Assembly: GCF_002161675.1 (NCBI RefSeq)
Contig: NZ_NFIH01000021.1
Coordinates: forward strand, 1 to 45,401
Length of the DNA: 45,401 nucleotides
From: Pseudoflavonifractor sp. An44
GTDB lineage: Bacteria > Bacillota > Clostridia > Oscillospirales > Oscillospiraceae
Reading direction: 5' to 3'
The translations under genes and the position numbers were made by a program. The notes below the pieces were generated by a model that ran no database searches, was not told where the DNA came from, and was given only the letters and a program-made list of their open reading frames with translations. Positions 23,156 to 33,864 of this stretch are shown piece by piece; the stretch's first letter is position 1; each line of letters begins with the position of its first letter.

Positions 23156-23191
23156 TTGACAAAAGGGATGATATCTGGTATCATCCCTTTT
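23156..23191 (+). promoter_or_regulatory. tRNA-Gly promoter overlapping a palindromic terminator
   Basis: TTGACA (23156-23161), 17 bp, TATCAT (23179-23184) with TGG before it. The interval 23161-23191 is also a perfect 13-bp inverted repeat (AAAAGGGATGATA/TATCATCCCTTTT) ending in T's, so the -10 lies in the 3' arm of a hairpin that could terminate the lipoprotein operon. Confidence 0.75.
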
Positions 23192-23197
23192 GTTGTC

Positions 23198-23273
23198 GCG
23201 AGTGTAGCTCATCTGGTAGAGCGCCACCTTGCCAAGGTGGAGGTAGCGAGTTCGAGCCTCGTCACTCGCTCCA
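23198..23273 (+). tRNA. tRNA-Gly (anticodon GCC), copy 1
   Basis: A 76-nt cloverleaf: acceptor GCGAGTG/CACTCGC, D arm GCTC/GAGC, anticodon stem CCACC/GGTGG with loop TTGCCAA (anticodon GCC at 23231-23233), T loop TTCGAGC, and encoded CCA end. It is identical over all 76 nt to the copy at 24062-24137. A terminator follows 5 bp downstream. Confidence 0.97.
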
Positions 23274-23277
23274 TAGT

Positions 23278-23314
23278 ATGGAGATATGCCTATCTGGGTA
23301 TATCTCCATTTTTT
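23278..23314 (+). terminator. tRNA-Gly terminator, copy 1
   Basis: ATGGAGATATGCC (23278-23290) pairs with GGGTATATCTCCAT (23296-23309), followed by TTTTTT. Confidence 0.85.
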
Positions 23315-23325
23315 CTTGTCTTAGC

Positions 23326-23431
23326 GAACTCGCTACCTCCACCTTAACTTGAAATCTGAGGTTGGGGGCCCCGCAAAAGCCATGGGCTTTTGTGGGTACG
23401 GAAGCGAGTTCGAGCCTCGTCACTCGCTCCA
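23326..23431 (+). repeat. tRNA-Gly-derived 106-bp block, copy 1
   Basis: The block opens with an inverted copy of tRNA-Gly positions 23234-23254 (anticodon stem 3' side to T loop) at 23325-23345. It ends with a direct 29-bp copy of the tRNA 3' end (23403-23431 repeats 23245-23273). Between them is a 12-bp hairpin (CCCGCAAAAGCC/GGCTTTTGTGGG, one wobble). GAACTCGCT (23326-23334) and AGCGAGTTC (23403-23411) can close the whole unit. The block is identical to 24190-24295. Confidence 0.85.
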
Positions 23432-23434
23432 AAC

Positions 23435-23466
23435 AAAAACGGTCTGACTTAAGTCAGGCCGTTTTT
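23435..23466. terminator. Bidirectional hairpin terminator after the 106-bp block
   Basis: The 16-bp arms 23435-23450 and 23451-23466 (AAAAACGG... and ...CCGTTTTT) pair with one wobble. The poly-A/poly-T ends make it work on both strands. Confidence 0.75.
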
Positions 23467-23587
23467 ATTTGGCATCCGTAGGTTATTTCAATGCTCGCCG
23501 GAAGTCAATTCCGGCTGCGCCAAGGTTTTCGCCTCAGGCGAAAACACTTGTACGGCGCACCCGCGCCGCCCCGCCTTGCGGGGCCCC

Positions 23588-23651
23588 ATGGAGACGTACC
23601 TGTTCGGGTATGTCTCCATTTTTCTTGTCTCGGTGAACTCGTCCTCCTCCA
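23588..23651 (+). repeat. Third, tRNA-less copy of the tRNA-Gly terminator region
   Basis: A terminator hairpin (23588-23600 with 23606-23619, then T's), CTTGTCTCGG, and a decayed inverted tRNA fragment resemble 24143-24209 closely, but no tRNA lies upstream. The sequence before it (23470-23587) holds short hairpins such as GTTTTCGCC-TCA-GGCGAAAAC and GCCCCGC-CTT-GCGGGGC. Confidence 0.6.
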
Positions 23652-23653
23652 TC

Positions 23654-23706
23654 GGCTCCCTTGTGTAAAGGGAGCTGTCAGCCGCAAGGCTGACAAGGGG
23701 TTGTCC
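23654..23706. repeat. Interspersed palindromic repeat of gut-Clostridia type
   Basis: GGCTCCCTT-GTGT-AAAGGGAGC hairpin followed by TCAGCCGCAAGGCTGA and CAAGGGGTTGTCC. From memory, near-identical units are scattered in many Oscillospiraceae and Lachnospiraceae genomes. There is a single copy in this window. Confidence 0.5.
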
Positions 23707-23760
23707 TTCTAAACAGCATAGTTCAGGCTTCCCAGCCCGGTGGGGACGCTACCCGCTGGG

Positions 23761-23788
23761 GGTACCTTTTGACCGGGCAAAAGGTACC
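23761..23788. repeat. Perfect palindrome in gene-free repeat region
   Basis: GGTACCTTTTG and CAAAAGGTACC flank ACCGGG. The rest of 23707-24019 is GC-rich, with further short inverted repeats and no open frame preceded by a ribosome-binding site; I see no gene in it. Confidence 0.5.
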
Positions 23789-24019
23789 AAAACCCGCTTA
23801 GGGCGTTCCCCCCTAAGTACCCCCCTGGGGTACGAGGCTGGAACTGCGTCAATCCGACCGTCGGCCCTGGCCCCGGTGGGGTCACATAGATAGCCTGGCA
23901 AGTCTATGGAAAGCGCCCCTTCTCTGTGAGTCTGTGCCTCTGTTTCCAGGCCCTCACCCTGGTGCGCGGCGTTTCCGCCGCCAGGAGTGTCTGCCGCTCC
24001 ACATTTTTTCATTTCACCC

Positions 24020-24048
24020 TTGACAAATCCTCTTCCCTCTGGTATCAT
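24020..24048 (+). promoter_or_regulatory. Promoter of tRNA-Gly copy 2
   Basis: TTGACA (24020-24025), 17 bp, TATCAT (24043-24048), with TGG before the -10. The hexamers are the same as copy 1, but the spacer differs and lacks the palindrome. Confidence 0.8.
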
Positions 24049-24061
24049 ACCCTTTGTCGTT

Positions 24062-24137
24062 GCGAGTGTAGCTCATCTGGTAGAGCGCCACCTTGCCAAG
24101 GTGGAGGTAGCGAGTTCGAGCCTCGTCACTCGCTCCA
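24062..24137 (+). tRNA. tRNA-Gly (anticodon GCC), copy 2
   Basis: Identical over 76 nt to the copy at 23198-23273, with encoded CCA. The two genes are 864 bp apart. Identity of the tRNAs and the downstream 106-bp blocks, with diverged terminators between, suggests duplication or gene conversion. Confidence 0.97.
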
Positions 24138-24142
24138 TGTAA

Positions 24143-24179
24143 ATGGAGGCGTACCTGTTCGGGTATGTCTCCATTTTTT
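24143..24179 (+). terminator. tRNA-Gly terminator, copy 2
   Basis: ATGGAGGCGTACC (24143-24155) pairs with GGGTATGTCTCCAT (24161-24174), then TTTTTT. It is diverged from copy 1 but keeps the fold. Confidence 0.85.
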
Positions 24180-24189
24180 CTTGTCTCGG

Positions 24190-24295
24190 GAACTCGCTAC
24201 CTCCACCTTAACTTGAAATCTGAGGTTGGGGGCCCCGCAAAAGCCATGGGCTTTTGTGGGTACGGAAGCGAGTTCGAGCCTCGTCACTCGCTCCA
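24190..24295 (+). repeat. tRNA-Gly-derived 106-bp block, copy 2
   Basis: Identical by eye to 23326-23431: inverted tRNA piece at 24190-24209, internal 12-bp hairpin, and direct 29-bp tRNA 3' end at 24267-24295. Confidence 0.85.
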
Positions 24296-24296
24296 G

Positions 24297-24334
24297 AAAA
24301 AGAAGTTCTGACTTACGTCAGACCTTCTTTTTTA
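24297..24334. terminator. Hairpin terminator after block copy 2
   Basis: GAAGTTCTGAC and GTCAGACCTTC pair around TTAC, flanked by A- and T-runs. It holds the same position as the terminator at 23435-23466. Confidence 0.75.
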
Positions 24335-25744: not shown

Positions 25745-25786
25745 TGCCCTGCATCTTTCTCACTTTAGCGCACCAGAAAAAAAGAC

Positions 25787-25815
25787 TTGCATTTTCTGGC
25801 TGTGTGGTCTATAAT
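25787..25815 (+). promoter_or_regulatory. Promoter of the aromatic amino acid operon
   Basis: TTGCAT (25787-25792), 17 bp, TATAAT (25810-25815). With a start near 25822 the leader RNA before aroF is about 270 nt and contains the leader peptide and attenuator. Confidence 0.8.
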
Positions 25816-25847
25816 AGCCTCACTTGAACGAAACGAGGTTTACAGCA

Positions 25848-25943
25848 ATGGCCCGTCTGTCTGCCCACAACTTCATGGCTTATTATGGCTTTACTCGATT
25901 TACCGGGTACGGCAAATTTGTCGTGGAGCAATGTGGCATATGA
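25848..25943 (+). CDS. Phe/Tyr-rich leader peptide of the aromatic operon (31 aa)
   Basis: A 31-codon frame with GAGG (25835-25838) 9 bp before its ATG, sitting between the operon promoter and a rho-independent terminator. Seven of 31 residues are Phe or Tyr: F9, Y12, Y13, F15, F18, Y21 and F24, with no Trp. The composition, position and following structures are those of an attenuator leader peptide such as pheL in enterobacteria. It probably has no function as a protein: ribosome stalling at Phe/Tyr codons would report charged tRNA-Phe and tRNA-Tyr levels. This is inference from sequence; no homologue search was possible. Confidence 0.8.
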   Translation: MARLSAHNFMAYYGFTRFTGYGKFVVEQCGI

Positions 25944-26035
25944 GTGAGGCGTTTGGCACCCACACCCGTGGGGGCAACTGCTGACATACCGGAATGGGAC
26001 GCTCATTGACGCATTGGCAGTCAATGGGCGTTTTT
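25943..26035 (+). promoter_or_regulatory. Attenuator: antiterminator and terminator ahead of aroF
   Basis: Terminator: ACGCTCATTGAC (25999-26010) pairs with GTCAATGGGCGT (26020-26031), one wobble, 9-nt loop, then TTTTT. Competing antiterminator: 25943-25952 (AGTGAGGCGT) can pair with 25999-26007 with one bulge and one wobble, consuming the terminator 5' arm. The antiterminator 5' strand begins on the last base of the leader stop codon. A separate hairpin, GCACCCAC/GTGGGGGC (25956-25963 and 25968-25975), lies between. No T-box sequence is seen. Confidence 0.75.
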
Positions 26036-26090
26036 GCATACCGGGGACCTCTTCCCAGCCGCTGAGACAAGTAGAAAGGATGAACAACGT

Positions 26091-27113
26091 ATGGTTATCG
26101 TGATGAAGCCCTCTGCCACACAAGATACCATCCAGGCTCTGGCCCACCAGCTGGAGACAGACCACCCGGAAGTGCGGGTGAGCATCACCAAGGGCGTGGG
26201 CTGCTCCATTCTGGGCCTGGTGGGAGACACCTCCCAAATTGACCAGGACAAACTCACCATCCACCAGGACGTGGACCGGGTGATGCGGGTCCAGGAGCCA
26301 TACAAGAAGGCCAACCGGAAGTTCCACCCCGAGGACAGCGCCGTGCGTATTGGCAACGCCGTCATCGGCGGCGGTGGATTCACCGTCATCGCCGGGCCCT
26401 GCTCGGTGGAGAGCCGGGAGCAGATCATTGACGTGGCCCAGTCGGTGAAGGCCTCCGGGGCCTCCCTGCTGCGGGGCGGCGCTTTCAAGCCCCGCACCTC
26501 CCCCTACGCCTTCCAGGGCATGGGCACCCCCGGCCTGGATTTGCTGCTGGAAGCCAAGGCAGAGACCGGGCTGCCCATCGTCACCGAGCTGATGAGCCCC
26601 AAATACTGCGAGCTCTTCGAGGAAAAGGTGGATTTAGTGCAGATTGGCGCCCGGAACATGCAGAACTTCGACCTTCTCAAAGAAGTGGGCAAGATGTCCA
26701 AGCCCATTTTGCTCAAGCGGGGCCTGGCCAACACCTACGAGGAGTGGATTATGTCGGCGGAGTACATCATGGCCGCCGGCAATGAAAACGTGATTTTGTG
26801 CGAGCGAGGGGTGCGTACCTTCGAGACCTTCACCCGTAACACCCTGGACCTGTCCGCCATCCCCGCCATCCGCCGCATGAGCCACCTTCCCATCGTGGTG
26901 GACCCCTCCCACGCCGCCGGGATGTACTGGATGGTGGAGCCCCTGGCCATGGCCGCCGCCGCTGTGGGCGCCGACGGTTTGATGATCGAGGTGCACAACA
27001 ACCCCGCCTGTGCCAAGTGCGACGGCCAGCAGTCCCTGACCCCCGAGAAGTTCCGCCGCCTCATGGACAAGGTGGTGCCCCTGGTGGAGCTGATGGGCAA
27101 AACCCTCACCTAA
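26091..27113 (+). CDS. aroF: 3-deoxy-7-phosphoheptulonate (DAHP) synthase, type I-beta
   Basis: The first shikimate enzyme, condensing phosphoenolpyruvate and erythrose 4-phosphate. It has 340 aa. Residues ~1-70 are a small ferredoxin-like regulatory domain, as in Thermotoga maritima DAHP synthase, where it mediates Tyr/Phe inhibition. The barrel carries AGPCSVESREQI, LLRGGAFKPRTSPYAFQG, QIGARNMQNF and VVDPSHAAG. ATG 26091 is 10 bp after AAAGGA; the frame extends upstream only into the attenuator. As first structural gene after the attenuator it would be controlled both by transcription and by feedback. Confidence 0.96.
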   Translation: MVIVMKPSATQDTIQALAHQLETDHPEVRVSITKGVGCSILGLVGDTSQIDQDKLTIHQDVDRVMRVQEPYKKANRKFHPEDSAVRIGNAVIGGGGFTVIAGPCSVESREQIIDVAQSVKASGASLLRGGAFKPRTSPYAFQGMGTPGLDLLLEAKAETGLPIVTELMSPKYCELFEEKVDLVQIGARNMQNFDLLKEVGKMSKPILLKRGLANTYEEWIMSAEYIMAAGNENVILCERGVRTFETFTRNTLDLSAIPAIRRMSHLPIVVDPSHAAGMYWMVEPLAMAAAAVGADGLMIEVHNNPACAKCDGQQSLTPEKFRRLMDKVVPLVELMGKTLT

Positions 27114-27139: not shown

Positions 27140-27472
27140 ATGGCCATGCTAGAGCGCACCCTCACAGGAAACTTTGACCAAGTCCTCCGCACCCTGGACC
27201 AAGCCATCTTAAACGGCAGCATGTCCGCCTCCTACGAGGACGGCACGGTGTACACTATGGGCGACGTCCGCTGCGCCGTGCGTATGTACGAGCGGTACAG
27301 CTACACCGGCGGCAACCGGGTGGCCCTGTGTATGACCCTCACGGGACAGGGCGACCAGCTGCGCCTGACCGCCATCACCGCCGGCGGCAGTCAGGCCATG
27401 TTCTTCAAGCTCAACACCTGGGGCGAGGAGGCCTTTTTGGACACTTTGGCCCAGGCCATCGACAAACTCTGA
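27140..27472 (+). CDS. DUF6054-like small protein in the aromatic operon
   Basis: 110 aa, alpha/beta, with FDQVLRTLDQAIL near the start, CAVRMYERYSYTGGNRVALCMTL in the middle and GGSQAMFFKLNTWGEEAFLDTL at the end. The last block resembles the DUF6054 family as I remember it; function is unknown. GAGAGGAG is 8 bp before ATG 27140. It sits 26 bp after aroF and 15 bp before aroB, so it is within the operon and may serve the pathway or be a passenger. Confidence 0.7.
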   Translation: MAMLERTLTGNFDQVLRTLDQAILNGSMSASYEDGTVYTMGDVRCAVRMYERYSYTGGNRVALCMTLTGQGDQLRLTAITAGGSQAMFFKLNTWGEEAFLDTLAQAIDKL

Positions 27473-27487
27473 GAGGAGATATCCCCC

Positions 27488-28549
27488 ATGCGAACCCTCA
27501 CAGTCCCCCTCCCCGGACGGGAGTATGACATTCTCATAAGGCCCGGCCTGCTCCCCCAGGCCGGGGGCTACATCTGCTCGGTGGTCCCCCAGGCCCGGAA
27601 AGTGGCCCTGGTCACCGACTCCCACGTGGCCCCGCTGTACGGCGAGACGGTGGCCCACAGCCTGGCCCGGGCCGGGTTCCAGGTGGAGACCTTTGTGGTC
27701 CCCGCCGGGGAGCAGAGCAAGTGCTCCAAGCAGCTGGCCCGGCTGTGGAGCAGCTTCGCCCAGTTCGGCCTCACCCGCACCGACTGCGTGGTGGCCCTGG
27801 GGGGCGGCGTGGTGGGGGACCTGGCGGGCTTTGCCGCCGCCACCATCCTGCGGGGGGTGGCCCTCATCCAGATTCCCACCACCCTCCTGGCCCAGGTGGA
27901 CTCCTCGGTGGGGGGCAAGGTGGCCATCGACCTGCCCGAGGGGAAAAACCTGGCGGGGACCTTCTACCAGCCCCGGCTGGTGCTCATGGACCCGGAGGTG
28001 CTGGGCACCCTCCCCCACGAGACCTTTGCCGACGGCATGGCGGAGGTCATCAAGTACGGCTGCATCGCCGACCAGGGCTTTTTGGAGTTTCTGAGCCAGA
28101 ACCCCTCCCGCTCCGCCATCATGGCCAACATGGAACAGGTGCTGTACACCTGCTGCCGCATCAAGGCGGAGGTGGTGGCAGAGGACGAGCTGGACACCGG
28201 GCGGCGGATGATTCTCAACTTCGGCCACACCCTGGGCCACGCCTACGAGCTGGCGGGCCACTACACCACCCACACCCACGGCCAGGCCGTGGCCGCCGGG
28301 ATGGTTCGGGCCGCCCAACTGGGCACCGCCCTGGGTCTCACCCCCGCCCACCTGGCCCCGGACATCGCCCAACTGGTGGAGGCCTTCGGCCTGCCCACCG
28401 CCATTCCCTGTTCCCAGGCGGACTACGCCGCCGCCATCGGCCTGGACAAGAAGGGGGCGGGCTCCTCCCTCTCCCTCATCCTCCTGGACCGACCCGGCCA
28501 CGCCCTGGCCTACCCCATTTTGAAACAGCAGCTGCTGGAGATGCTGTAA
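27488..28549 (+). CDS. aroB: 3-dehydroquinate synthase
   Basis: Converts DAHP to 3-dehydroquinate using NAD+ and a divalent metal. 353 aa, normal length. The NAD-binding stretch is DCVVALGGGVVGDLAGFAAAT, followed by PTTLLAQVDSSVGGKVAID and KNLAGTFYQP; metal ligands lie in MAEVIKYG and NFGHTLGHAYE, and H..H in HTHGQAVAAGM. GAGAGGAG precedes the ATG at short spacing. Confidence 0.97.
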   Translation: MRTLTVPLPGREYDILIRPGLLPQAGGYICSVVPQARKVALVTDSHVAPLYGETVAHSLARAGFQVETFVVPAGEQSKCSKQLARLWSSFAQFGLTRTDCVVALGGGVVGDLAGFAAATILRGVALIQIPTTLLAQVDSSVGGKVAIDLPEGKNLAGTFYQPRLVLMDPEVLGTLPHETFADGMAEVIKYGCIADQGFLEFLSQNPSRSAIMANMEQVLYTCCRIKAEVVAEDELDTGRRMILNFGHTLGHAYELAGHYTTHTHGQAVAAGMVRAAQLGTALGLTPAHLAPDIAQLVEAFGLPTAIPCSQADYAAAIGLDKKGAGSSLSLILLDRPGHALAYPILKQQLLEML

Positions 28550-28561
28550 CGAGGTATTGCT

Positions 28562-29788
28562 ATGAACGTCACCATCACCCCCACCAAGCTTCACGGCCCC
28601 GTCACGCCTCCTCCCTCCAAAAGCCAGGCTCACCGGCTCATCATCGCCGCCGCCCTGGCCTCTGGGGAGAGCGTGCTCACCCACGTGGCCCCATCCCAGG
28701 ACATTCTGGCCACCATCCGGTGTATGGAGGCCCTGGGTGCCTCCTTCACCTGGTCCGGGTCCACCCTGACGGTGCAGGGCCTCACCATGAACCGCCCCAC
28801 CCCTTCCCTTCCCCGCCTGGACTGCGGGGAGTCCGGCTCCACCCTCCGCTTTCTCATCCCCATCGCCCTGGCGGTGGCGGGCGGGGGCGTGTTCACCGGA
28901 CAGGGGCGGCTGATGGAGCGGCCCCAAAAGCCCTACTTTGATCTCTTCGAGGCCAAAGGCATCTCCTACGCCCTGGAAGACGGGGTGCTCACGGTCCAGG
29001 GCCAGCTCCCCCCCGGGGACTACCCCCTGCCGGGCAACGTGTCCAGCCAGTTCGTCACCGGGCTGCTGTACGCCCTGCCCCTGGTGGAGGGCACCTCCAC
29101 CATCACCCTCACCTCCCCCCTGGAGTCGGAGGACTACGTGGCCATGACCCGGCAGGCCCTCCACCAGGCGGGCATTACGTTGGACGGATACACCGTCCCC
29201 GGTTCCCAGCACTACTCCCCCATTCAGGGCAGCGTGGAGGCGGACTGGTCCCAGGCGGGCTTTTTCTACGCCGGGCTGGGGCTGGGCAATGACCTGGACA
29301 TCCAGGGTCTGGACCCCCACTCCCCCCAGGGAGACCGGCGCATTGTCTCCTTCTATGAGCAGCTCACCGGGGCGGGACACACCGTCACTTTGGACGTGAG
29401 CCAGTGCCCCGACCTGGTGCCCCCCCTGGCGGCCCTGGCCGCTGGTATGGAGGGGAAAACCACCCACATTGTGGGGGCGGCCCGGCTGCGCATCAAGGAG
29501 AGCGACCGACTGGCCACCACCTCCCAGGTCCTCAACGAACTGGGTGCCCAGGTGGAGGAGCTCTCCCAGGGGCTCACCATCCGGGGTATAGCCCAATTCG
29601 CCGGGGGCGTCACCGTCCCCTGCCACAACGACCACCGCATCGCCATGATGGCTGCCATGGCCGCCACCCGGTGTGAGGCTCCCGTCACCCTCACAGGTGC
29701 TCAGTGTGTGGCCAAATCCTTCCCCGACTTCTGGGAGGTCTATGAGAAGCTGGGTGGAACCATTGTAAAAAGCGAGGAAATCCTATGA
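28562..29788 (+). CDS. aroA: 5-enolpyruvylshikimate-3-phosphate synthase
   Basis: Adds enolpyruvate to shikimate 3-phosphate. 408 aa, slightly short for the family. Substrate-binding segments are PPSKSQAHRLIIAAALASG at the N-terminus, LDCGESGSTLRFLIPIA, and RLRIKESDRLATTSQVLNELGA near the C-terminus; HNDHRIAMMAAM is the conserved late motif. GESGSTLR replaces the more common GNAGTxxR, as in other clostridial enzymes. Its end overlaps aroC by 4 bp (ATGA). Confidence 0.96.
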   Translation: MNVTITPTKLHGPVTPPPSKSQAHRLIIAAALASGESVLTHVAPSQDILATIRCMEALGASFTWSGSTLTVQGLTMNRPTPSLPRLDCGESGSTLRFLIPIALAVAGGGVFTGQGRLMERPQKPYFDLFEAKGISYALEDGVLTVQGQLPPGDYPLPGNVSSQFVTGLLYALPLVEGTSTITLTSPLESEDYVAMTRQALHQAGITLDGYTVPGSQHYSPIQGSVEADWSQAGFFYAGLGLGNDLDIQGLDPHSPQGDRRIVSFYEQLTGAGHTVTLDVSQCPDLVPPLAALAAGMEGKTTHIVGAARLRIKESDRLATTSQVLNELGAQVEELSQGLTIRGIAQFAGGVTVPCHNDHRIAMMAAMAATRCEAPVTLTGAQCVAKSFPDFWEVYEKLGGTIVKSEEIL

Positions 29789-30831
29789 ACTATACCATTT
29801 TCGGCGAATCCCACGGCCCCGCCATTGGCGTCACCCTGACAGGGGTGCCCGCCGGGCTGGAGCTGGACTGGGCCGCCATTGAGAAAGACATGGCCCGCCG
29901 GGCCCCCGGCAAGTCCCCCCTGGCCACCGCCCGCAAGGAGGCCGACCAGGTCCAGGTGCTCTCCGGGGTATTTGAGGGAAAGACCACCGGGTCCCCCCTG
30001 TGCGCCATGATTGCCAACACCGACACCCGCTCGGCGGATTACAGCAAAACCCGTGACCTGGCCCGGCCCGGCCACGCCGACTACCCCGCCCACGTCCGCT
30101 ACCAGGGCTTCAACGACTACCGGGGCGGCGGCCACTTCTCCGGGCGGCTCACCGCGCCCCTGGTATTTGCCGGGGCCATCGCCAAGCAGATTCTGGCCCA
30201 GCGTGGTATCACCGTGGGGGCCCACATCAGCTCCATCTACGGGGTCAACGACGAGGCCCTGGAGGACTGGGATACCCTGAAAGGGGTGGCGGACAAGGAC
30301 TTCCCGGTGCTCAACGACGAGAAGGGCCAGGAGATGCAGGAGGCCATTTTGGAGGCCAAGGAGGACCAGGACTCCGTGGGCGGCTCCATTGAGTGCGGGG
30401 TGTTCGGACTCCCCGCCGGATACGGCTCCCCTGACTTCGGGGAGAACGCCGAGGGCATCTTCTCCCAGTACCTGTTCGCCGTCCCGGCGGTGAAGGCGGT
30501 GGCCTTCGGCGCTGGCACCGCCTTCTCCCTCATGCGGGGCTCCGAGGCCAACGACCCCCTGTACGTGGACGAACATGGAAACGTCGGGGCGGAGCAGAAC
30601 TGCGCCGGGGGCATCAACGGCGGCATCACCAACGGCATGCCCCTGGTGTTCGAGGTGACCATGCGCCCCACCCCCTCCATCGCCCGCACCCAATTTACCA
30701 TTGATATGAACCGCATGGAACATGCGGAGCTGGAGCTCCAGGGGCGGCACGACCCCTGTGTGGTCCCCCGGGCGGTCCCCGTCATTGAGGCCGCCGCAGC
30801 CCTGGCCGCCTGCCAGCTGCTGGGAATCTGA
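29785..30831 (+). CDS. aroC: Chorismate synthase
   Basis: Makes chorismate from EPSP with reduced FMN. 348 aa. Signatures: GESHGPAIGVTLTGVPAG at the start, RPGHADYPAHVRYQGFNDYRGGGHFSGR, and the late NGGITNGMPLVFEVTMRPTPSI. Translation is coupled to aroA through ATGA. The stop is 21 bp before an ATTCTTCATT-type repeat, which splits the operon between aroC and pheA. Confidence 0.97.
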   Translation: MNYTIFGESHGPAIGVTLTGVPAGLELDWAAIEKDMARRAPGKSPLATARKEADQVQVLSGVFEGKTTGSPLCAMIANTDTRSADYSKTRDLARPGHADYPAHVRYQGFNDYRGGGHFSGRLTAPLVFAGAIAKQILAQRGITVGAHISSIYGVNDEALEDWDTLKGVADKDFPVLNDEKGQEMQEAILEAKEDQDSVGGSIECGVFGLPAGYGSPDFGENAEGIFSQYLFAVPAVKAVAFGAGTAFSLMRGSEANDPLYVDEHGNVGAEQNCAGGINGGITNGMPLVFEVTMRPTPSIARTQFTIDMNRMEHAELELQGRHDPCVVPRAVPVIEAAAALAACQLLGI

Positions 30832-30852: not shown

Positions 30853-30911
30853 AAAACGAAGAATTAAGAATGAATCATGAAGAATTGTGGTGTGCCGCAT
30901 AGCGGCACGGA
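30853..30911. repeat. ATTCTTCATT-family interspersed repeat, copy B (inverted)
   Basis: Reverse orientation of the family: tandem GAAGAAT/AGAATGAAT, then ATGAAGAATTGTGGTGTGCCGC-AT-AGCGGCACGG (split here across the hairpin). It lies between aroC and pheA, where transcription must read through it. Confidence 0.8.
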
Positions 30912-30932
30912 GTTTCATTGGAGGCCATTCCC

Positions 30933-32096
30933 ATGGATGAATTGCAGCAGTATAGAGAGGAAATCGACCGCATTGACCGACAGATGGTAGAGCTGTTCCG
31001 CCAGCGCATGGCGGTGACCGGACAGGTGGGCCAGTACAAGCTGGAGCGAGGCATCCCGGTGCTGGACGCTCAGAGAGAGCGCCAGGTGCTCCAGGACAAG
31101 GCCCGTCTGGTGGACGGAAACCTGCGCCCCGGCGTCACCACCCTCTTTCAGACCATGATGTCCATCTCCCGCCGCCAACAGCGGGACCTGACCCGGGAAC
31201 GGGCGGATAACCCCGGCGTTCCCCGGTTTGTCCAGGCCCTGTCCCAGATACGGGAGCCCATCCAGAACCCCCGGGTGGTGTTCCAGGGCGAGCCTGGGGC
31301 GTACAGTGAGCAGGCCTGTGTCAACTTCTTCGGCGAAGGGGTCCAGGCCACCGGGCTGCCCCAATTTGAGGACACCTTTCTGGCCCTGAAAGAGGGCCGG
31401 GCGGACTATGCGGTGCTCCCCATTGAAAATAGCTCCACGGGCGCCATCCGCCAAATCTACGATCTGCTGTCGGAATACGATTTCTTCCTGATGGGGGAAA
31501 CCACAGTGAAGGTGGACCACTGCCTCATGGCCCTGCCCGGGGCCACCCTGGACACCATCACCCAGGTGTACTCCCACGAACAGGGCCTGCTGCAAAGCGC
31601 CAAATTTCTAAGCCAACACCCCAACTGGCGGCCCATGACCCAGTCGGACACCGCCGGGTCGGCCAAGATGGTGGCCGAGAGCGGCGACCTGACAAAAGCC
31701 GCCCTGTGCTCGGCCCGGGCCGCCCAGATCTACGGGCTGAACATCCTGGTCTGTCCCACCAACGACAACCCCCACAACACCACCCGCTTTGTGGTGGTCT
31801 CTCCCCAGGTGGAGCTGCGGGAGGGCGCTGACAAGATCAGCACCGTCTTTCTCCTCCCCCATGAGGCGGGCTCCCTCCACGAGATTCTCACCATCTTCGC
31901 CGTCCACGGCCTGAACATGGTGAAGCTGGAATCCCGCCCCCTGCCCCAGCACAGCTGGGAGTACATGTTCTTCTTGGAGTTCACCGGGAACCTGAACACC
32001 CCGGAGATCGCCGATGTGCTCCATGAGCTGTCCCAGACCACCGGAGACTTCCGGGTACTTGGCAACTTCGTGTCGAATTTGGAGGAAGAAGCATGA
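30933..32096 (+). CDS. pheA: Bifunctional chorismate mutase / prephenate dehydratase
   Basis: P-protein, 387 aa, turning chorismate into phenylpyruvate. The AroQ-type chorismate mutase covers residues ~1-85 (YREEIDRIDRQMVELFRQRM). Prephenate dehydratase covers ~108-290, with GEPGAYSEQA, LPIENSSTGAI and catalytic NTTRF. A C-terminal ACT domain (~300-380) has KLESRPL, the Phe-binding ESRP motif, so feedback inhibition by Phe is expected. ATG 30933 is 8 bp after GGAGG; the upstream in-frame TTG at 30918 lies before the ribosome-binding site. It overlaps the next gene by 4 bp. Confidence 0.97.
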   Translation: MDELQQYREEIDRIDRQMVELFRQRMAVTGQVGQYKLERGIPVLDAQRERQVLQDKARLVDGNLRPGVTTLFQTMMSISRRQQRDLTRERADNPGVPRFVQALSQIREPIQNPRVVFQGEPGAYSEQACVNFFGEGVQATGLPQFEDTFLALKEGRADYAVLPIENSSTGAIRQIYDLLSEYDFFLMGETTVKVDHCLMALPGATLDTITQVYSHEQGLLQSAKFLSQHPNWRPMTQSDTAGSAKMVAESGDLTKAALCSARAAQIYGLNILVCPTNDNPHNTTRFVVVSPQVELREGADKISTVFLLPHEAGSLHEILTIFAVHGLNMVKLESRPLPQHSWEYMFFLEFTGNLNTPEIADVLHELSQTTGDFRVLGNFVSNLEEEA

Positions 32097-33031
32097 AGAA
32101 TATTATCCTCATTGGTATGATGGGCTGTGGAAAAACCACCGCCGGACATATGTTGGCCCAGCAGCTGGGCCGCCCCTTCGTGGACTGCGACGAGCTGATG
32201 GAGGGGACCACCGGGCGCACCATCTCCCAGATCTTCGCCCAGGACGGCGAGCGGGGCTTCCGCTCCCTGGAAAGCCAGGTGCTGGAGCAGCTGAGCAGCC
32301 AGGAGGGTTTGGTCATCGCCACCGGCGGCGGGGCGGTGCTGTCCCGGAAAAATGTGACCTCCCTGCGCCGCAACGGCATTCTGGTGTTCCTGGACCGCCC
32401 CATCGACGAGATCTGCGCCAGCCTGGACACCGAGGGCCGCCCCCTGGCCCAGGAGGGACACCACGCCTTTGTGGAGCGCCACCACCACCGTCTGCCCCTG
32501 TACCTGTCCGCCGCCGACGTGATCATCCAGGACTTTTCCACACCGGAGGCCACCGTTGCGGAAATTCTGGAGAAGATCTCCGAGGTGGGCAAGAAGTTTC
32601 TCATCATCAACGGCCCCAACCTGAACCTGTTGGGCAAGGGGGATGTGGAGCTGTACGGCCGGGAAAACCACGAAAATTACGCCTCTCTGTGCACCATGAT
32701 CGAGGAGTACGCCAAGGTACATAACTCCACCGCCACCTGCTATCAGTCCAACCACGAGGGGGACATTGTGGACCAGATTCAGGCCGCCGACGGCATCTAT
32801 GACGCCATCATCATCAATCCCGGCGCCTACGCCCACTACTCCTACGCCATTCTCGATGCCCTGCTGGCGGTGAACACCCCCGCCTTCGAGGTGCTCATCG
32901 GCAACATCCACGCCCGGGAGCCCTTCCGCTCGGTGTCCGTCACCGCCTCGGGGTGTGTGGGCCAAATCTACGGCCTGGGCCTCCAGGGCTACCTGCGGGC
33001 CATGGACTTCTTCCTCAAAGGGGGACAATAA
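32093..33031 (+). CDS. aroKQ: Fused shikimate kinase - type II 3-dehydroquinate dehydratase
   Basis: One 312-aa chain carries two non-consecutive shikimate steps. Residues 1-165 are shikimate kinase: Walker A GMMGCGKTT (8-16), DCDE with D31 and D33, R57, GGG (78-80) and lid R116. Residues 167-312 are type II dehydroquinase: INGPNLNLLG (172-181), catalytic-type Y188, YQSNHEGD, NPGAYAHYSYA and NIHAREPFR. There is no stop or internal start between them. Oddly, the loop normally reading G-T-R-E-P before that Tyr is GKGDV here, so the conserved catalytic Arg is absent, with only K182 nearby. No other dehydroquinase is in the window. Confidence 0.93.
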   Translation: MKNIILIGMMGCGKTTAGHMLAQQLGRPFVDCDELMEGTTGRTISQIFAQDGERGFRSLESQVLEQLSSQEGLVIATGGGAVLSRKNVTSLRRNGILVFLDRPIDEICASLDTEGRPLAQEGHHAFVERHHHRLPLYLSAADVIIQDFSTPEATVAEILEKISEVGKKFLIINGPNLNLLGKGDVELYGRENHENYASLCTMIEEYAKVHNSTATCYQSNHEGDIVDQIQAADGIYDAIIINPGAYAHYSYAILDALLAVNTPAFEVLIGNIHAREPFRSVSVTASGCVGQIYGLGLQGYLRAMDFFLKGGQ

Positions 33032-33033
33032 CC

Positions 33034-33864
33034 ATGCTGCAAGTCATCGGTGATCCCATCTCCCACTCCAAATCCCCCATCATCCAGACCACCATGCTGG
33101 ACTACCTGGGGCTGGACATTCCCTACACCCCCCACCTGGTGAAAAAGGGGGAGGTGGCCCAGTACCTGGCCCAGGCTGAGGTCCAGGGCATCACCGGCTT
33201 CAACGCCACCATGCCCCACAAGGAGGACCTGGTGCCCCTGATGGACCAGTTGGGGGAGGAAGTGGAGCTATACGGGGCGGTGAACACCGTCTGCCGCCGG
33301 GACGGAACGTGGATTGGCCACAACACCGACGGGGACGGCTGTCTGGAGTCCCTGGTGCACATGGGCATGTGGCCCGCCCGGCAGGTGGTACTGCTGGGGG
33401 CGGGGGGCGCTGCCCGGGCGGTGGCCCTGCGCCTGGCCCAGACCAAGGCCGAGCGCATCTGGGTGTGCAACCGCACCCTGCCCAAGGCCCACCAGCTGTG
33501 CCAGCTGGACGCCTCCGGCACCCTCATCCCCGTGGGCTTCGACCCCAGCACCCTCTCCCAGGTGTGCTCCCAGTCCCAGCTGGTCATCAACTGCACCAAC
33601 CTGGGCATGGACGACTGCCCCCACCAGTTTGAGGACTTCTCCTTCCTGGATGCTCTTCCCCGTGACGCCGGGGTGATGGACCTCATCTACTACCCCGCCT
33701 GCACCGAATTGCTGCGTCAGGCCCAGACCCGGGGTCTCAAGACCTGCAACGGCCTGCCCATGCTCATCTATCAGGCCATTTTCGCCCTGGAATACTTCCT
33801 GGACCGGCCTCTGCCCCGGTATGAGCTGGCCCAAGTGGTATTTGCCAAGCTGGGCCTGGTATAG
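33034..33864 (+). CDS. aroE: Shikimate dehydrogenase
   Basis: NADPH-dependent reduction of 3-dehydroshikimate. 276 aa from ATG 33034, with AAAGGGGGA 8 bp upstream. Signatures: GDPISHSKSP at residues 6-15, NATMPHKEDL with the catalytic Lys, NTDGDG with the catalytic Asp, and the nucleotide-binding GAGGAARAV. It is the last gene of the operon. I see no convincing terminator in the 40 bp after the stop. Confidence 0.96.
   Translation: MLQVIGDPISHSKSPIIQTTMLDYLGLDIPYTPHLVKKGEVAQYLAQAEVQGITGFNATMPHKEDLVPLMDQLGEEVELYGAVNTVCRRDGTWIGHNTDGDGCLESLVHMGMWPARQVVLLGAGGAARAVALRLAQTKAERIWVCNRTLPKAHQLCQLDASGTLIPVGFDPSTLSQVCSQSQLVINCTNLGMDDCPHQFEDFSFLDALPRDAGVMDLIYYPACTELLRQAQTRGLKTCNGLPMLIYQAIFALEYFLDRPLPRYELAQVVFAKLGLV

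Follow-up and report, generated by a model that had tools for sequence, protein, structure and literature searches.

Leader peptides have been described before aromatic amino acid genes in other bacteria, and here we analyse a similar element upstream of aroF, the gene for 3-deoxy-D-arabino-heptulosonate 7-phosphate (DAHP) synthase, in Pseudoflavonifractor sp. An44 (Oscillospiraceae; contig NZ_NFIH01000021.1, the 45,401-nucleotide stretch that we call the window). A short open reading frame (ORF) containing Phe and Tyr codons is followed by an intrinsic terminator and an operon leading to phenylpyruvate. Within the ORF lie an in-frame codon pair, CGA-TTT (CGA-UUU in the RNA), and a hairpin termed P1, and relatives carry a paired, Tyr-rich leader before a second aroF. 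One of the closest described systems, the aroR leader before aroF of Corynebacterium glutamicum, contains Phe-Tyr-Phe and is reported to respond to Phe, not Tyr, limitation (PMC4046766, PMC11802643). It too is a leader peptide with Phe/Tyr codons before a DAHP synthase gene, but it belongs to the Actinobacteria and has a run of only three residues; the available passages on aroR, from whose description the likeness is drawn, mention no internal hairpin, CGA-UUU or paired Tyr leader. In Acholeplasma, uORFC-13-1 before aroF combines an upstream ORF with one or more Phe codons, an extra base-paired element and a terminator, and attenuation has been proposed for it (PMC8632094). Its 24 representatives come from Acholeplasma and environmental sequences, and it too is likened to our element by description, not by sequence. 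The enterobacterial pheL/pheA and trpL attenuators (mentioned in PMC11802643) share the general plan of a leader with regulatory codons, a terminator and a mutually exclusive antiterminator, and leader peptides have been noted in Firmicutes for hisS (PMC2965389). Attenuation of DAHP synthase by Phe/Tyr leaders is thus already known in Corynebacterium and proposed in Acholeplasma, and the suggestion in a first-pass annotation of this DNA that such a sensor may be undescribed was too strong. Our literature search, mostly without subscription papers, met with no earlier description of such an element from Oscillospiraceae, nor of the CGA-UUU/P1 features or paired Phe and Tyr leaders, the Tyr leader not having been searched by name.

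We read the locus as a ribosome-mediated transcription attenuator that senses charged tRNA-Phe and, in the single-paralog clade to which the window belongs, charged tRNA-Tyr. We put the probability of this reading at roughly 0.9; the stalling of the ribosome and the signals it responds to are inferred. The promoter, ribosome-binding site, 31-codon ORF and aromatic positions picked out by the first-pass annotation read in the sequence exactly as it claimed (Table 1). The peptide is MARLSAHNFMAYYGFTRFTGYGKFVVEQCGI, with aromatic residues F9, Y12, Y13, F15, F18, Y21 and F24; if leaders had the F+Y content of the proteins that the operon encodes (6.2%), at least seven Phe or Tyr among 31 residues would turn up with P = 0.0025. 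Among 19 aligned relatives, TTGCA is visible at the −35 position in 18 (L033 is cut), and all 19 have TATAAT or TATACT at −10. The upstream gene, cinA, is divergent, so that the terminator serves no other plus-strand gene. The leader (25780-26100) matched no Rfam family up to E 5 and no curated pheL-type leader model. A T-box (RF00230) or other Rfam element was thereby rejected as an explanation of the locus, as the first-pass annotation had anticipated for the T-box; TRAP or a repressor was not separately tested. Elsewhere in the genome there are 12 T-box matches, seven of which exceed the Rfam cut-off, and pheS is itself preceded by one (L136; 82.6 bits at E 2e-18, short of the 93-bit cut-off). 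The genome thus seems to hold Phe-sensing RNA systems of two kinds, the leader attenuator and the T-box before pheS.

Table 1. Features of the aroF leader and of the downstream aromatic operon, in window coordinates.
Feature	Position	Strand	Basis
Promoter: TTGCAT (−35, 25787-25792), 17-nt spacer, TATAAT (−10, 25810-25815)	25787..25815	+	sequence; conserved in relatives; absent from consensus scan
GAGG ribosome-binding site of leader ORF	25835..25838	+	sequence; present in 19/19 aligned relatives
Leader ORF of 31 codons (Phe 4, Tyr 3), ATG at 25848, stop TGA at 25941-25943	25848..25943	+	sequence, relatives
P1 hairpin: 5' arm 25887-25897, loop 25898-25903, 3' arm 25904-25914	25887..25914	+	9/11 pairs in this copy
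Near-invariant in-frame codon pair CGA TTT (Arg17-Phe18)	25896..25901	+	codon counts in relatives
Putative pause site of RNA polymerase (U at −1, G at +1), 10 nt past P1	25924..25925	+	geometry
Antiterminator strand, pairs with 26000-26006	25940..25946	+	folding; pairing and geometry in relatives
Intrinsic terminator	25999..26035	+	folding, relatives, covariation; absent from consensus scan
aroF, DAHP synthase	26091..27113	+	
DUF6054 protein	27140..27472	+	
aroB, 3-dehydroquinate synthase	27488..28549	+	
aroA, EPSP synthase	28562..29788	+	
aroC, chorismate synthase	29785..30831	+	
pheA, chorismate mutase / prephenate dehydratase, ACT domain	30918..32096	+	
aroK-aroQ fusion, shikimate kinase + dehydroquinase II	32093..33031	+	
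aroE, shikimate dehydrogenase (listed ORF; ATG likely at 33040)	32953..33864	+	

Conservation in relatives is a stronger argument than either leader composition or folding statistics. The first-pass annotation had proposed looking for the aromatic codons and stems in related genomes, and both were found there, in 61 leaders of one family with a covarying terminator. Within the genus (42 genomes), the upstream region of the orthologous aroF could be read in 40, one of them a partial gene (G188); one further genome had only the second paralog and one had no match at E 1e-60. At the DNA level, six genomes besides the window's own matched over most of the length and eleven more over a short core in the same place (E <=0.002), while the match in G178 lies elsewhere. 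A leader ORF with CGAT[T/C]T and a terminator occurred in 32 of the 40 orthologues. Beyond the genus, 35 of the best-scoring orthologues from 150 sampled family genomes gave 34 usable loci (one was truncated), with a CGAT[T/C]T leader in 29, an aromatic leader and terminator lacking this motif in two (L023, L027) and no leader in three (L020, L096, L101). The 61 leaders (32 genus, 29 family) were reduced to 49 non-redundant ones by dropping eight near-duplicates, one sequence with N and three aberrant leaders (L026, L095, L100). These 49 consist of 15.2% Phe, 4.2% Tyr and 2.9% Trp, as against 3.5, 2.7 and 0.6% in the operon's proteins. Of the 400 family genomes, 95 matched a covariance model of P1 plus terminator; 71 did so at E <=5.5e-9, and the best of the 24 weaker ones stood at 3e-5. 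A strict P1 pattern found 56 stretches in named GTDB genomes, including Flavonifractor plautii, Pseudoflavonifractor, Intestinimonas and Enterenecus; 55 of them are followed by aroF, and the remaining locus ends 236 nt past the motif. A short P1 model matched 14 of 345 order-level genomes at <=1.5e-10, all in the window's family, the best value outside it being ~1e-4.

The terminator named by the first-pass annotation appears in the minimum-energy structures, and in both windows folded the leader-terminator region proved more stable than all but one of 200 shuffles (for 25934-26040, z −3.1, with 1/200 shuffles equally stable). A permissive search found it in all 61 CGAT[T/C]T leaders, and its helix shows double changes at 8 of 11 pairs, with 97% of cells paired; P1 and terminator together beat 500/500 shuffles on all five covariation measures. 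When the RNA is folded only up to the terminator 3' arm, 25940-25946 pairs with 26000-26006, and 25930-25935 with 26010-26015, in the most stable structure; once that arm is added, the terminator beats the antiterminator in the minimum-energy fold, and the two are mutually exclusive. A strand that pairs with the terminator 5' arm therefore exists, as had been claimed, but it only overlaps the 25943-25952 originally given and is shifted from it. Across all 61 leaders the antiterminator pairing averages −13.8 kcal/mol, compared with −11.8 in shuffled sequences (10 shuffles each). The first-pass annotation also had the strand begin on the last base of the leader stop codon, a relation that we rejected as a general rule: the stop lies at +33 to +87 from CGATTT, while the strand starts 34-54 nt past CGATTT in 56/61 leaders (exceptions L005, L018, L024, L026 and L094). 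Where the stop is at neither +45 nor +48 (28 leaders), the start scatters less about the motif (standard deviation 8.7) than about the stop (19.4), and the spacing thus follows CGATTT. By eye, the P1 5' arm and the antiterminator strand could form a classical 1:2 hairpin in the window's clade, but not in leaders of the L005 type.

From this anatomy we propose the following mechanism. With enough Phe and Tyr, the ribosome would finish the leader and cover the antiterminator strand, whereupon the terminator would form and the aro-pheA operon would be off. A shortage of either amino acid would make it stall within the leader, most likely at CGA-TTT or nearby aromatic codons, leaving the antiterminator strand free to pair with the terminator 5' arm before the 3' arm is made, and the polymerase would read through.

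Independent support comes from a second aroF paralog, 58–65% identical to the window's aroF and present in most genus genomes. Among 40 second-paralog loci (L296-L335; 26 genus, 14 family), all have a tyrA homologue downstream on the same strand, and 35 have a recognised Tyr leader (e.g. MNSRNYGYGYYRYYDSGTLSCP) with, on average, 5.2 Tyr and 0.9 Phe codons and in each case a terminator. The five uncounted loci comprise three set aside by eye (L320, L333, L334) and two without a candidate (L301, L335); at L320 another ORF was picked automatically, though a Tyr leader is known at the same place (as L102). A hairpin covers the Tyr codons (mean z −2.42, 34/35 below −1), and the Arg codon of these leaders is CGC (33) or CGT (2), never CGA. 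The leader codons thus match the branch and product of the operon, which strengthens the attenuation reading and weakens its rivals. The idea that other DAHP synthase upstream regions have no leader was rejected: of 26 re-checked regions, 20 have an aromatic ORF preceded by a Shine-Dalgarno (SD) sequence, L102, L103 and L106 have a Tyr leader just below threshold, and L111, L112 and L121 gave none. A third leader type, mixed Phe/Tyr and without CGATTT (e.g. ..YFSFTYFFGKAY..), was seen before DAHP synthase genes of other family genomes (L115, L118-L120 and L122-L127). In the window's clade, each of seven species has one DAHP synthase match at E 1e-60 (in draft genomes, 86–100% complete), and Tyr codons around the motif average 3.7, compared with 1.0 in 23 two-paralog genus genomes (Mann-Whitney P = 8e-5, though this is one clade and effectively one event). 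The mixed Phe+Tyr leader that had been claimed for this locus is thus real for its clade.

Within the leader, the CGA-TTT pair is all but fixed. In the 49 non-redundant leaders the Arg codon is always CGA and the following codon is TTT in 48, a set that had been selected by CGAT[T/C]T; free of that bias, the count is 61 out of all 63 leaders identified in the family. By comparison, the aroF genes at 38 of these loci have CGA for 11 of 609 Arg codons (~2%). Phe codons elsewhere in the leaders divide into 83 TTT and 70 TTC, those at +21 into 44 TTT and 1 TTC (P = 3e-9). Such codon bias implies that constraint acts on codons or nucleotides, not on the peptide alone. This bears on the best-surviving alternative, a TnaC-like nascent-peptide arrest in which the Arg-Phe-x-Gly segment, lying in the exit tunnel, would respond to a metabolite such as free Phe and not to codon starvation. 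The core (RF, then G-x-G-[FY]-F) is indeed unusually conserved for a simple codon counter, but no synonymous Arg or Phe codon occurs at the pair, the P1 helix explains much of the peptide conservation (divergent members swap residues and keep pairs), and the leader of the paralogous operon has another core and is rich in Tyr. On the codon evidence we rejected the peptide as sole explanation of the conservation, and consider an arrest peptide very improbable. As to what the pair might do under attenuation, CGA in the P-site is reported to destabilise elongation in yeast (PMC6301793), and by analogy CGA-UUU could act as a stall amplifier in this leader, a suggestion that we hold to be doubtful.

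P1 forms around the Arg-Phe codons with up to 11 pairs, in one clade as GGCUGGACUCG-AUUUAC-CGGGUUCGGCU. In enterobacterial pheL and trpL, the pause hairpin and the antiterminator share strand 2; here, by contrast, P1 is a separate hairpin wholly within the ORF. Over the 49 leaders its inner stem has 4.63 of 5 pairs in the better register, compared with 4.26 (sd, standard deviation, 0.05) when arms are swapped between leaders, and its outer stem 5.49 of 6 compared with 5.17 (sd 0.06); one register has 15 double-change cells where 4.6 are expected (0/500 shuffles), and the relatedness of the leaders inflates all these comparisons. Compensatory changes include UAUCG/CGAUA in L097 and AAUCG/CGGUU in L029, where the amino acids change and the pairs stay. 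The P1 window has a mean z of −2.67 (46/49 below −1), the adjacent upstream window +0.34.

The covarying stem and near-invariant loop, CGAUUUA, would also suit an RNA-binding-protein site or riboswitch-like part, with the short ORF merely as its carrier. A second family of the order (f23) argues otherwise. Among the 29 usable of its 30 best DAHP synthase loci (from 59 matching genomes of 100), 17 have an aromatic leader that carries CGA TTT in frame, after three chance CGATTT ORFs (L280, L287, L295) were dropped by eye; CGA makes up 16 of 434 Arg codons in the aroF of this family. There the motif is mostly outside the hairpin, which begins 12–21 nt later in 16/17 leaders (mean z −1.73; the search began at +12, and the 17th leader, L272, was anchored on a wrong CGATTT). 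The loops of these hairpins mostly hold Tyr/Phe codons and the stems are quite different. Since, in addition, the hairpin of the Tyr leader has other letters, frame, SD sequence and aromatic codons are conserved, and no Rfam family matches, we regard a binding site as very improbable. Finally, a constitutive terminator with a spurious ORF, where read-through gives a low basal level and nothing is sensed, might appeal in that some relatives lost the leader. It is practically negligible in view of the enrichment in aromatic residues, the constrained codons, the pairing of the antiterminator, the fact that ORF and terminator are retained together, the Tyr leader upstream of tyrA and the divergent cinA.

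A few other loci resemble these leaders. In L265 and L270 of the second family, CGATTT occurs twice, early and in the hairpin loop, making them possible intermediates between the two family types. An aromatic leader with a P1-like hairpin precedes prephenate dehydrogenase in L172 and L173 (a partial gene) of family f2 and DAHP synthase in L259, from another order, which suggests from sequence that a wider class may exist. Other weak model hits (L250-L255, L257, L258, L260) were by eye not aromatic leaders, and L174-L178 and L261-L264 were left out of the leader reading.

If attenuation operates as proposed, P1 may serve as a pause hairpin that holds the polymerase until the ribosome arrives, to which we give somewhat less than an even chance. 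In Bacillus subtilis, the tlrB and vmlR leaders combine attenuation with NusG-dependent pausing, and the tlrB pause gives time for leader-peptide translation; in the NusG pause a hairpin stands 11–12 nt from the 3' end of the RNA, with TTNTTT occupying −11 to −6 (PMC12288461). Those leaders respond to antibiotics (tylosin for tlrB) and not to amino acid supply, and the pause that we infer here is drawn from geometry. With −1 set at alignment column 46, P1 ends at −11/−12 and T-rich sequence lies at −11 to −6. At least four of the five defined TTNTTT positions match in 42/49 leaders (all in 10), and in 36/49 one base earlier as well; it counts against this match that the Phe codons themselves supply T. 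A pyrimidine-G step stands at the pause position or one base earlier in 48/49 leaders.

Several observations weigh against our interpretation. Eight of the 40 genus orthologues have no leader; by eye, leader and terminator are both gone before aroF in five of them (L070, L071, L073, L075, L088), while three have lost the leader and kept terminator-like sequence (L084, L091, L092). A simple consensus scan of the window missed both promoter and terminator, because the −35 departs strongly from TTGACA and the terminator hairpin is bulged; we call the promoter because it is conserved in relatives and the terminator because of its folding. The antiterminator advantage over shuffles is modest, being seen in 42 of the 61 leaders and absent in 19, and the leaders are related. 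P1 alone fails to beat shuffles on two of the five covariation measures (135/500, 47/500), its upper half occurs in two registers, RNAalifold unaided predicted only the terminator, and the window's own copy forms just 9 of 11 pairs. The window's T-rich motif, AAATTT, matches 3/5 positions. The genome's NusG (the only one examined) has H, N and I aligned to Y77, N81 and T82 of chain 8ehq_G, which we take to be B. subtilis NusG, and so keeps one of the three; the non-pausing substitutions at these positions are H, S and V. Motif and NusG thus fit a NusG pause poorly, and a polymerase pause itself is plausible. Lastly, the case as a whole is built on sequence and folding. Set beside the anatomy, the 61 leaders with terminators and the Tyr leader before aroF-tyrA, these points leave the attenuator reading of the first-pass annotation supported.

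More tentatively, and with a probability that we would place low, the leaders may form a modular attenuator class that splits aromatic control by branch, with a Phe leader before aroF-pheA and a Tyr leader before aroF-tyrA, each having a polymerase-pausing hairpin over the sensed codons. The single-paralog clade would then carry a merged, mixed sensor, and in the Phe version CGA-UUU would be a built-in amplifier of starvation, since P-site CGA, read by inosine-adenosine wobble, would render the Phe codon after it hypersensitive when tRNA-Phe is low.

The regulated operon comprises the eight plus-strand genes after the terminator, which encode all shikimate steps plus chorismate mutase/prephenate dehydratase. 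The complete pathway and nine aromatic activities accord with the earlier description of a nine-gene operon, but the genes number eight. Prephenate dehydrogenase is not among them. The DUF6054 gene within the operon was matched at 10 of the 56 P1-pattern loci; many of these loci are cut off too soon to show it. In the aroC-pheA gap, a terminator-like hairpin with a weak T run behind it (30891-30909) is a possible internal control point. Elsewhere in the window (23156-24333), two near-identical tRNA-Gly(GCC) units lie 864 bp apart, each followed by a 144-bp repeat and each having a TTGACA/TATCAT promoter and a hairpin-T-run terminator.

On this reading, ribosome-mediated attenuation of a complete shikimate-to-phenylpyruvate operon would span a large family of gut Clostridia. 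The paired aroF operons with Phe and Tyr leaders offer a natural experiment on the evolution of amino-acid specificity, the window's clade showing the form that the leader takes when one aroF paralog remains, and the five genus genomes that lack leader and terminator offer a natural comparison for the regulator's function. The textbook mechanism requires neither a fixed CGA-UUU nor a covarying hairpin within the ORF, and with these features it can be tested directly whether an attenuator owes its sensitivity to codon pairing and polymerase pausing. Very probably, the leader and terminator let the bacterium switch on its phenylalanine operon only when Phe or Tyr runs short.

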